64,000 bases of DNA from Tubiluchus corallicola. Its lineage: Eukaryota; Priapulida; Priapulimorpha; Priapulimorphida; Tubiluchidae. The DNA is taken from NCBI GenBank assembly GCA_030141605.1, contig JAQGDQ010000864.1:1-64000 (forward strand). The letters are read 5' to 3'. The position numbers were made by a program, and so were the translations under genes. Shown piece after piece: positions 1 to 63,002 of the stretch (position 1 is its first letter; each line of letters starts with the position of its first letter). The notes beneath the pieces are model-generated. The model had not been told where the DNA came from. It ran no database searches and was given only the letters and a program-made list of their open reading frames with translations.

Positions 1-630
1 AGGTCACCACCATAATTACCAGCACACGTTACATACCTGTGGGTGTGAGGAGGAATTGTAGAAAACCAAGATAATATTCTAGCTCACATTGTTACTCAGT
101 TTCACAATTCTCCCAAAGGTCACCACCATAATTACCAGCACACGTTACATACCTGTGGGTGTGAGGAGGAATTGTAGAAAACCAAGATAATATTCTAGCT
201 CACATTGTTACTCAGTTTCACAATTCTCCCAAAGGTCACCACCATAATTACCAGCACACGTTACATACCTGTGGGCGTGAGGAGGAATTGTAGAAAACCA
301 AGATAATATTCTAGCTCACATTGTTACTCAGTTTCACAATTCTCCCAAAGGTCACCACCATAATTACCAGCACATGTTACATACCTGTGGGTGTGGGGAG
401 AAATTGTAGAAGACCTTGATAATATTATAGCTCACATTGTTACTCAGTTTCACAACTCACCCAAAGGTCACCAATATAATAACCAGCACACGTTACATAC
501 CTGTGGGTGTGGGGAGAAATTGTAGAAAACCAAGATAATATTCTAGCTCACATTGTTACTCAGTTTCACAACTCTCCCAAAGGTCACCACCATAGCACGC
601 CAGCACTCGTTACATACTTATGTGTGTGGG
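1..630. repeat. 116-bp tandem array (about 5.4 copies), running off the window edge
   Basis: The string AGGTCACCA recurs at 1, 117, 233, 349, 465 and 581, a period of exactly 116. Units are 90-99% alike and the last is degenerate. The array lies upstream of the first visible oxidase exon, presumably in an intron. Confidence 0.95.
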
Positions 631-861
631 CAGATTACTATATCAAGAATAAAATTTTCTTTAAAAACTATCACAAGTTTTCTATATGGTAATTAACTAT
701 CTGCGCATTCAAGTGTTTTTCGCCATAACTGATTTTAGAAGTATATGTAATTAAGTACTTCATGTTGAAATGACAACATTATAAAAATGACTTATCATTA
801 ATTTCTTACGTAAGTTAATATTGTTAAAATAAGAAAATGTTTAGTACAGTATTACTTATAG

Positions 862-3800
862 GTAAAGGATTCATTGAGCTTGGTGCACAATTCATTCATG
901 GCCAGGAAGGAAACCCTATTTATGAGTTAGCAGAGAAACATGCACTAGTAGCTCCGAAGAGTTCTTCAGAAAAAGAACGGTCAACAGTAGCCAACTACTG
1001 GGATGGTGAAAACGATCTACTCTTCACGGAAGATGGGGTTAAAATTTCTCCCGACCTGGTTGAGAAGACAAAAGCGATAATGCAGTCCATTATGAAAAGC
1101 ATGAGTGATTTACCACCAGGGGGCCATAAATTTGAGTCCATTGGAGAGTTTTACAGAGAAAAGTTTTCCGAACGCGTTAAGCAGTTAAACTTGGATAAAG
1201 AAGAGCTGGCGTTGATGTATGGAATTTATAGATGGTTAAGATACATTGAGGATGTTGACAGTGGTTGTGATACAATAGACCATCTGCTTCTTGATGGCTT
1301 CAATGCATATGAACAGTGTCCTGGCCGACCGTTCAGTCAGGTGAAGCCGTCGTTTAGTCAAGTACTGAAGCCTTTTCTGGATGCCATTCCACCTGAAAAG
1401 ATTGTATTTGAGAAACCTGTAACACGAATACAACATCACAAGGAAGCTGTACATGGCAAGTGAGAGAATATGTAATGTCTTTTCTTTGTCTTTTCTTCAC
1501 GAATCCTCGTTCTTTTTCTTTGTCTTTTCTTCCAAAAACCCTGGTCTTTTTCTTTGCCTTTTCTTCCCATATCCCAGTTCTTTTTCTTTACCTTTTCTTC
1601 CCAAATCCCCGTTCTTTTTCTTTATCTTTTCTTCCCAAATCCCCGTTCTTTTTCTTTGTTTTTTCTTCACAAATCACATTTCTTTTTCTTTGTTTTTTCT
1701 TCCCAAATTCCAGTTCTTTTTCTTTGTTTTTTCTTCACAAATCACTGTTCTTTTTCTTTGTTTTTTCTTCACAAATCACAGTTCTTTTTTTGCCTTCTTC
1801 ACAAATCCTAGTTCTTTTTTTTGTCTTTTCTTCCCAAATCCCAGTTCTTTTTTTGTCTTTTCTTCACAAATCCCCGTTCTTCTTCTTTGTCTTTTCTTCC
1901 CAAATCCCCGTTCTTTTTTTGTCTTTTCTTCACAAATCCTAGTTCTTTTTCTTTGTCTTTTCTTCCCATATCCCAGTTCTTTTTCTTTATCTTTTCTTCC
2001 CAAATCCCAGTTCTTTTTCTTTGTCTTTTCTTCACAAATCCCAGTTTTTTTTCTTTGTCTTTCCCAAATCCCAGTTCTTTTTCTTTGTCTTTTCTTCCCA
2101 AATTCCAGTTCTTTTTCTTTGTCTTTTCTTCCCAAATTCCAGTTCTTTTTCTTTGTTTTTTCTTCACAAATCACAGTTCTTTTTTTGCCTTCTTCACAAA
2201 TCCTAGTTCTTTTTTTGTCTTTTCTTCCCAAATCCCAGTTCTTTTTTTGTCTTTTCTTCACAAATCCCAGTTCTTTTTCTTTGTTTTTTTCTTCACAAAT
2301 CCCAGTTCTTTTTTTGTCTTTTCTTCACAAAATTGCAATTTGTTGCTTCGCCCCTTTGAACCCCCATGGGGACCTACGCACCCCCCCAAATCCCCGGCCT
2401 GTTTCAGAGTTTTTTGGAATTTGTCATTCTCATCCCTGCATTGACCTCATTGTGTATTTCTTTCAGGTATGTTACGGTTAAATGCAAAGATGAGACAGTG
2501 TTTCATGCCAATCATGTAATTATCACTATTCCTCTTGGAGTACTAAAAGCTGAAGGTGAAAGCCTGTTTGATCCACCTCTACCTCAGTATAAACTAGATG
2601 TGATTAAAAGGTATACAGTTCATCTCATTTATTTTAATAAGGTAATATAAAATCATGTGATCTATGCAAATGTCAAAACACTGCTGAAAGGTGTGGTGGA
2701 AAAGGAAAAAGTATTGAGTTGCTTTTTGCTTTTTTGGAAGTACAGTAACTAACCTGTAGTTTGTTAAAAACTTTATTGCGTAGCTCAAACTCGTATTAGT
2801 TAACATCATTTCACTGGATTGTTCTAATAGTATCTTTTTAACGGCTTATATTGGGATTAAACGTACTAGTGGGATCGACTTTACGAGTTTCTCGTGGCAA
2901 GTTTATATGAACTTTTCGAAAGTTGCTGAGAATTCTCTCCAACAGTAAGCATAAGCTGACACTCAGCAGAACTCTCTGTAGAAGTCTCTCTGAAAGTTGC
3001 TGAGAGCTCTCCAACAGTAAGTGTAAGCTGACACTCAGCAAAACTCTCTGTAGAAGTCTCTCAGAAAGTTGCTGAGAGTTCTCTTCAACAGTAAGCGTAA
3101 GCTGACACTCAGCAAAACTCTCTGTAGAAGTCTCTCAGAAAGTTGCTGAGAGCTCTCCAACAGTAAGTGTAAGCTGACACTCAGCAGAACTCTCTGTAGA
3201 AGTCTCTCAGAAAGTTGCTGAGAGTTCTCTTCAACAGTAAGCGTAAGCTGACACTCAGCAAAACTCTCTGTAGAAGTCTCTCAGAAAGTTGCTGAGTTCT
3301 CTCCAACAGTAAGTGTAAGCTGACACTCAGCAAAACTCTCTGCAGAAGTCTCTCTGAAAGTTGCTGAGAGTTCTCTCCAACAGTAAGTGTAAGCTGACAC
3401 TCAGCAAAACTCTCTGTAGACGTCTCTCCAAAAGTTGCTTAGAGTTCTCTCCCACAGTAAGCGTAAGCTGACACTTGGCAAAACTCTCTGTAGAAGTCTC
3501 TCCAAAAGTTGCTTAGAGTTCTCTCCAACAGTAAGCGTAAGCTGACACTTGGCAAAACTCTCTGTAGAAGTCTCTCCGAAAGTTGCTGAGAATTCTCTCC
3601 AACAGTAAGCATAAGCTGACACTCAGCAGAACTCTCTGTAGAAGTCCCTCAGAAAGTTGCTGAGAGTCCTCTCCAACAGTAAGCATAAGCTGACACTTGG
3701 CAAAACTCTCTGTAGAAGTCTCTCCGAAAGTTGCTGAGAATTCTCTCCAACAGTAAGTGTAAGCTGACACTCAGCAAAACTCTCTGTAGAAGTCTCTCCA

Positions 3801-62325: not shown

Positions 62326-62351
62326 TCTTATAAGAGTTATAAAATATAAAG

Positions 62352-62567
62352 CAGGGTTCTCACAGAATTTTAAAAAATTCCCTAACCAGATTTTTCATGA
62401 CCAAGATAGCGCCTGCCATAGCAAAATTTTATTCCCAAAAATATGTTTCGAAAAATATCAGTTTGAAGTGATGATTTTTGCAACATTTTCCAATTTGCCT
62501 GAGTTATAGCCCCATTTTCATCATTTTGCTTGTATTTTCAAGGATTTCCTTGAGCGTGGGAACCCTG
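62352..62567. mobile_element. hAT-like MITE with CAGGGTTCYCAC ends (nested)
   Basis: Starts CAGGGTTCTCACAGAATTTT and ends GTGGGAACCCTG, a widespread hAT MITE end type. No clean 8-bp duplication. Inside the 61292-63002 element. Confidence 0.6.
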
Positions 62568-63002
62568 TGAAAGATTTTTGTGGTCACCGTTAAGATTTGT
62601 AGATGGCGACACTGGTCTTGTAAGCACTGAACAGTGTAGTTGTATGTTGTACAGTGGTAAAATGGGCGATGTCACCATGCGCACATCTCTGAGACAAGAT
62701 GCTGTACTTTAGGCAGAAACAGAACAGCAACGTTGCAGTGTGTGATGTCAGTTGACACGTACTTAGACACGTCCTGTACCGGCATATTCTTGAACTGTGA
62801 CAATTTAACCCATTCGCAAGCAAACAATATTCTTTGTTTAGGATTTTATCAAGTTTATTTATAAATTCTCGTACGTTTGTCTGTTTAAAATTACAACATT
62901 AAAATTGCATATTTTGTTTCGTTTTTTTAGTATTAAAACAACGGCTAAAAATTTTCTGAAACAGCACCCCCCTCCCGTAATTTTAACTACGAGCCGCCAC
63001 TG

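Follow-up and report, generated by a model that had tools for sequence, protein, structure and literature searches.

Dense minisatellite arrays in a priapulid genome, found at single loci and within dispersed short elements

The window analysed here is the whole stretch of 64,000 bases (1-64000) of the 86,830-base contig JAQGDQ010000864.1 (C1340) of Tubiluchus corallicola, from an assembly of 343.5 Mb in 2,344 contigs (GCA_030141605.1), and what distinguishes it is a dense set of minisatellites. Arrays were called with Tandem Repeats Finder (TRF), with overlapping calls merged and a unit of at least 10 bp, a length of at least 60 bp and a match of at least 70% required. It was found that 13,195 of the 64,000 bases (20.6%) lie in 21 merged arrays, A1-A21 (Table 1), and no array bases appeared in five first-order Markov shuffles of the window under the identical filter. 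The arrays are of minisatellite form, with head-to-tail units of about 10-150 bp and array sizes of 0.1-5 kb. A sequence-only reading of the window had described minisatellites as a fifth of its DNA, and both that share and the listed unit sizes are confirmed: TRF gives units of 20, 28, 31 (three arrays), 34, 42 (two), 49, 60, 65, 66, 72, 74, 82, 85, 93 and 116 bp, the unit put at about 120 bp in that reading is 122/114 bp, and a 21-bp array (A5) and a second 93-bp array (A6) are additional. Animal-type genes are present in the window, among them a spermine-oxidase-like gene, whose exons lie at about 0.8-2.6 kb, and one for a PNRC-motif protein at 34.8-35.2 kb; no RNA families were found in it.

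Table 1. Positions of the arrays, the elements that carry them and one neighbouring exon in the window.
Feature	Position	Strand	Observation
A1, 116-bp unit, 5.4 copies	1-628		contig starts inside array; TRF
A2, 34-bp unit, 25.7 copies	1480-2331		between spermine-oxidase-like exons (probably in an intron)
A3, 74-bp unit, 23.0 copies	2917-4608		part of unit: 44-69 bp matches, 81-94%, on 30 other contigs
A4, 28-bp unit, 5.0 copies	19027-19167		no second locus found
A5, 21-bp unit	26953-27086		inverted terminal array of foldback-like element
A6, 93-bp unit with inverted 21-bp motif of A5	27531-27748		opposite terminal array of foldback-like element
A7, 31-bp unit, 21.2 copies, 187-bp higher order	31031-31698		no second locus among 40 of 842 candidates
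A8, 20-bp unit, 25.8 copies	39012-39530		no second locus found
A9, 82-bp unit, 13.7 copies	39892-41008		no second locus found
A10, 122/114-bp unit, about 4 copies overall	41289-41755		no second locus found
A11, 49-bp unit, 52.2 copies	42605-45152		single place found in 343.5 Mb
A12, 42-bp unit (83-bp dimer), 6.1 copies	46350-46602		no matches among 40 of 2,099 candidates, weak test
A13, 42-bp unit, 4.0 copies	47561-47728		inside dispersed terminal-inverted-repeat element, ends TTAAAGGACAAG...
A14, 66-bp unit, 8.0 copies	49869-50485		no second locus found
A15, 85-bp unit, 9.0 copies	51354-52116		no second locus found
A16, 31-bp unit, 17.9 copies plus diverged left part	53024-53704		two weak relatives, 67 and 68%
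RING exon, RNF38-like ubiquitin-ligase gene	56447-56758	+	context
A17, 93-bp unit, 5.0 copies	58378-58840		no second locus found
A18/A19 element	60246-60962	+	1,733 first-look candidates, 40 scored
A18, 72-bp unit	60246-60430		left terminus of element, followed by core
A19, 31-bp unit	60839-60962		right terminus of element
A20/A21 element	61295-62318	+	starts CAGTGGCGGCTCGTG in most relatives; 1,691 first-look candidates, 40 scored
A20, first 60 bp of element doubled	61295-61414		TRF
A21, internal 65-bp segment 13-fold	61482-62318		TRF

Occurrence across the genome

For a sample of the genome, 22 stretches of 9-10 kb were sought on 22 contigs picked by number; two contigs were too short, so that 20 stretches were read, two of them shorter than planned (7,809 and 3,025 bases). 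At least one array was called by TRF in 14 of the 20 stretches and none in the other 6, and arrays take up 20,872 of the 168,635 non-N bases (12.4%), with a range of 0-100% per stretch and a median of 4.6%. One sampled stretch (L007) lies on the window's own contig, and leaving it out gives 12.9% (bootstrap 5.8-22.2%). Picking by contig gives short contigs excess weight; the six stretches on contigs of at least 200 kb hold 9.6% array, mostly due to one of them (L010). Given the sample average, the window is array-rich and not an outlier. Array formation is therefore genome-wide, as the sequence-only reading had proposed, and the absence of arrays from other scaffolds, which would have spoken against it, was not encountered, though six stretches are empty. 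That reading had also held that the arrays share no sequence, which stands for most pairs and fails for A5/A6 (inverted copies of one motif), A18/A19 and A20/A21 (each pair in one element). Among 56 arrays, 21 from the window and 35 from the sample, only five pairs have common sequence at E 1e-3, so that they do not constitute a satellite-DNA family of one unit.

Units of 10-50 bp alone make up 5.1% of the sample; by another program and other cut-offs, all repeats with units of 1-50 bp have been reported to make up 1.3% in Daphnia pulex, 2.4% in Drosophila and 2.9% in the honeybee (PMC3152781, Table 4). No genome of like minisatellite density was found in a literature search, which says little, as most subscription journals were outside its reach. 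The window arrays are a known kind of DNA at an extreme density. Minisatellites inside and outside transposable elements (TEs) are already known; what is unusual is the array density together with a ready supply of pairs that represent the states before and after array formation.

Single-locus arrays and arrays in dispersed elements

Each array, alone or with its neighbours, was searched for in the genome by counting first-look candidates and then scoring all or 40 of them; very common words are skipped in this search, and a missing match is therefore no proof. For 12 of the 21 arrays the search gave no other locus, apart from contig C1208 for A1 and A2. Seven of them are firm single-locus arrays, all candidates having been scored (A8, A9, A10, A11, A14, A15 and A17); for instance, A8, A9 and A10 gave no matches inside the arrays and only short ones beside them (14 candidates). 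For A1, A2 and A4, 40 of 48 candidates were scored, and the tests of A7 and A12 are weak, with candidates drawn off by neighbouring elements. Meanwhile, eight arrays (A3 in part, A5, A6, A13 and A18-A21), with 3,478 of the 13,195 array bases, contain sequence dispersed to tens or, by rough candidate counts, thousands of places. The notion that every array was born independently thus seems to apply to many of them, 12 having no other locus and seven of these being firm, and not to all, with eight made of or carrying dispersed sequence.

Seven of the eight belong to short elements of four families, for each of which the first look gave 876-2,099 candidates. In one family, A5 and A6 carry the same 21-bp motif in opposite orientations (84% over 63 bp) on either side of a common core, and the ends resemble TATAGGTTTTACAC and its inverse; 40 of 876 first-look candidates were scored. 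Inverted tandem-repeat termini, dispersed copies and sharp common ends identify this as a non-autonomous element of the foldback or terminal inverted repeat (TIR) kind: the left end TATAGGTTTTACAC is found in three of six aligned copies, with one-base variants in the other three, and the right end GTAAAACCTATA in five of the six. Across nine copies, the left array ranges between a few motifs of 21 bp and more than ten units of 60 bp, and the right one between too few repeats for TRF and 17.9 units of 40 bp. Similarly, the A18-A19 family has the sharp ends TTAAAGGAAAG.../...CTTTCCTTTAA of a TIR element; its left terminus TTTAAAGGAAAG... is amplified as A18, and its right terminus ...CTTTCCTTTAA with 8 further bases forms the unit of A19, the repetition of which is seen only in the window copy among ten aligned copies. 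The A13 family is also of the TIR kind, with sharp ends TTAAAGGACAAGAAA.../...TTTTCTTGTGCTTTAA in three copies. The inverted-repeat ends of three element families speak against a Helentron/HINE identity (Helentron end motifs were not searched for). In addition, TTAA stands at both ends of many element copies, which may be candidates for the piggyBac type, whose elements duplicate a TTAA target on insertion. The A20-A21 element has a CAGTGGCGG-like start and may be hAT-like, hAT-type elements having the TIR CAGNGGCGG... and an 8-bp target duplication. On another contig (G000:C1548:26848-29811), match spacing points to about 50 copies, in tandem, of a 57-bp piece from the start of the A20 element; this run is a satellite-like expansion of the element end.

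Two of the arrays outside the dispersed group adjoin elements. A2 overlaps at its right edge with a dispersed element where that element is cut (2325-2438, a 114-bp piece of an element of about 520 bp), and A7 starts 14 bp past point 31017, where a dispersed element copy is cut. Seeding of A7 by the end of the adjoining element was ruled out, as all 16 other copies run past that point without the A7 array; in two of the 16, another array follows 89 or 345 bp later. Derivation of the units from the adjoining element was likewise rejected, with no match for A7 and weak ones only for A2 (E 0.02-0.2). The element of about 520 bp has three copies in the window (15727-16253, 23294-23808 and 24409-24898) and a further one in L007 (5336-5848).

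How the arrays begin and change

For A13, A20 and A21, the states both preceding and following array formation can be seen, since related copies hold the unit once. The 42-bp segment of A13 is single in eight of the 13 element copies compared, 4.0-fold in the window and multiplied in four others, at 3.0 (L030), 22.4 (L028), 28.0 (L029) and, in a 26-bp form, 33.5 copies (L031). Eight of these copies (L028-L035) were chosen from the match table, most for having or being without arrays; in the four not chosen that way (window 5.4 kb, L001, L007 and L009), the segment is single throughout. The A20/A21 element was compared with 13 other copies, namely L007 and 12 fetched ones, five of them fetched since the match table hinted at repeats: repetition of the A20 type occurs in L059, L060, L064 and L065, that of the A21 type in L058, and neither array was called by TRF in the remaining eight, one of which (L057) has a diverged partial second copy. 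Unit edges were compared by eye in single-copy relatives of A13 (8), A20 (7) and A21 (6, with the right edge lost or changed in three), and no direct repeat longer than 3 bp was seen at them where both edges survive.

Copy-number phase was examined in 34 of the 56 arrays, those not cut off and with a unit of at least 20 bp, at least 2.8 copies and a match of at least 85%. A birth driven by flanking repeats should leave an array that finishes with a partial unit. Whole-number copies were found in 14 of the 34 arrays (10 of 29 without five element-borne arrays), and simulation gives a rate of 10.8% for random ends (398 arrays) and 77.5% for in-phase arrays (396 arrays).

Change in copy number is seen on contig C1208, which holds a second copy of the window from inside A1 to base 7855, where the fetched stretch stopped. 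Its exon region is 96.9% and its other unique parts are 93.5-97.4% identical to the window, with an insertion of about 640 bases, and it may be the other allele or a duplicate of the window start. A1 has 2.0 copies there and 5.4 in the window, A2 7.7 and 25.7, and A3 31.9 and 23.0, so that array length differs between alleles or duplicates. A further partial A3 copy on C1208 (L052, L053) has 6.6 copies and is inverted, about 11 kb or more away. A second haplotype of the whole window was considered and rejected: nine stretches covering A5-A10 and A12-A21 each have one full-length place, the window itself, and the second copy is seen for the first 7.9 kb only. Within arrays, the mean divergence between units is 5-24% in the 11 long arrays tested, and it grows with separation in five of them (A2, A7, A9, A11 and A16; at most 22 of 500 permutations), near units being more alike than distant ones as is expected from local growth.

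The dense minisatellites probably arose through repeated in-place duplication of 20-120 bp segments and later lengthening, with element-borne spread in addition. Such segments, in unique and mobile-element DNA alike, would be duplicated in place; the first duplication would often occur without a flanking direct repeat, by end-joining of a staggered break after fill-in synthesis, and in some copies would use short direct repeats, after which slippage or unequal exchange would add and remove units. Separately, arrays, often terminal ones, would be carried to hundreds or thousands of places by short non-autonomous elements with inverted ends, presumably through transposition. Both routes suggested by the sequence-only reading, slippage or repair on the one hand and mobile elements on the other, seem to operate, there being single-locus arrays as well as eight arrays with dispersed sequence.

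Several observations weigh against this explanation. A rise of unit divergence with distance is not clear in six of the 11 arrays; 20 of the 34 arrays lack whole-number copies, so that in-phase birth is not general; and the single-copy relatives of the 33.5-copy, 26-bp array in L031 have two CACTGAYTCACC motifs 26 bp apart, a signature of classical slippage, with CACTGAYTCACC also near both ends of the A13 42-bp unit. In the A18 family, the left end TTTAAAGGAAAGAACAAGTCA... repeats every 72 bp in all nine copies with that end aligned, found with a query that contained the array, so that the birth of this array is old and only its spread is visible. The phase counts and L031 together indicate more than one birth route. 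A classical birth throughout, with slippage or unequal exchange involving short direct repeats on either side of the unit, without any special process and with arrays merely tolerated, is possible though doubtful: besides L031, a remainder of at least 5 bp past whole units in 21 of 43 arrays is compatible with flanking repeats or partial units, but the edges of A13 (in its 42-bp form), A20 and A21 have no flanking repeats, and whole-number arrays exceed the random-end simulation.

It is rather improbable that mobile elements lie behind nearly all arrays, with the single-locus ones being remnants too old or rare to recognise and with arrays beginning at transposition, through excision-gap repair or multiplied termini. 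The four element families do carry arrays, three of the four at their termini, and the cut elements beside A2 and A7 fit such an origin; in L009 and L010, a different, unrelated array begins within about 40 bp of an A18-type element end; and in L010, 35 other places match a run that takes in the end of a 65-bp array, a spacer and the beginning of a 36-bp array, while four contigs hold relatives of the 36-bp array (among 40 scored of 131 candidates). However, when A8-A10, A14-A15 and A17 were searched together with their flanks and all candidates were scored, nothing matched inside the arrays, and a single locus was found for the 49-bp unit of A11. Assembly artefact, in which collapsed or misjoined reads would create or stretch arrays, is an unlikely source and is given very little credence, because, although the contig starts inside A1, three of the 20 sampled stretches hold 4,000-5,000 N (apparently directly beside an array in L071) and contigs C616, C682 and C636 have 20,000, 32,500 and 187,500 bases, each a round multiple of 2,500, as though a scaffolding program had cut them, the units within arrays diverge as described above and A1-A3 recur on C1208 in other copy numbers with flanks 93-97% identical.

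A wider reading is put forward tentatively and is less probable than not: homology-independent duplication, for example fill-in joining at staggered breaks, may have been so active in this lineage that about one-eighth of the genome, some 70,000 arrays as extrapolated from the 35 sampled, became minisatellite, and the many single-copy/array element pairs might then be a direct record of births from which the origin of minisatellites could be worked out. How minisatellites start is still an open question; this genome offers a dense natural set for before/after comparison of element segments and three arrays (A1-A3) comparable between the window and C1208, and its unusual array density makes it well suited to studying the origin of repeats of this familiar kind.

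Known systems and further observations

In cells of mouse and human, fill-in end-joining gives rise to small tandem duplications, the overhangs being 43-50 bp long (Schimmel 2021, PMC8355091); as proposed here, tens of bp are duplicated largely without microhomology, but the events there are single duplications, whereas here they would be the first step of an array. It has been reported that 23% of human tandem repeats are tied to TEs, that only 6% of the births of TE-derived arrays fit known models, and that most births show neither direct repeats at their flanks nor partial units at the ends and are termed unexplained (Ahmed and Liang 2012, PMC3389668). The two cases are alike in having single-locus and multilocus arrays together, in growth in place and in the TE link (23% there, 8 of 21 here), and unlike in extent, with TE-derived arrays at about 0.32% of the human genome and all arrays at 12-21% of the DNA sampled here.

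Similarly, the foldback transposon Tetris of Drosophila virilis is non-autonomous and has inverted termini holding tandem repeats, which resemble the outermost terminus, with variable copy number and longer arrays elsewhere; its unit is 220 bp, compared with 21/40/60 or 72 bp here, and the two are likened in architecture (PMC4079207). The Pacific oyster assembly is likewise replete with short satellite-like arrays on non-autonomous elements, the Cg_HINE Helentrons, but the commonest arrays there are Helentron central repeats, whereas in the present case elements carry arrays in their inverted termini or internally, and for more than half of the window arrays no link to an element was seen (PMC7492417).

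Hairpin-driven birth was rejected, as 45 units folded with DNA parameters gave a mean z of -0.21, with three of the 45, A13 and A14 among them, below -2 and no sign of unusual structure in general. At the left edge of A14 (49869-50042), an extra 21-bp repeat leaves the first unit flanked by 21-bp direct repeats. Among the sampled stretches, L071 (C1555:20001-29000) has kilobase arrays apparently adjoining a gap, with a 26-bp unit in both orientations; in L070 (C999:20001-23025), a 90-bp unit fills all 3,025 bases up to the contig end; and L072 has two identical 61-bp inverted repeats (2397-2457 and 8683-8743), 6.3 kb apart and each with a 32-bp tandem duplication, which are possibly the ends of a larger element.

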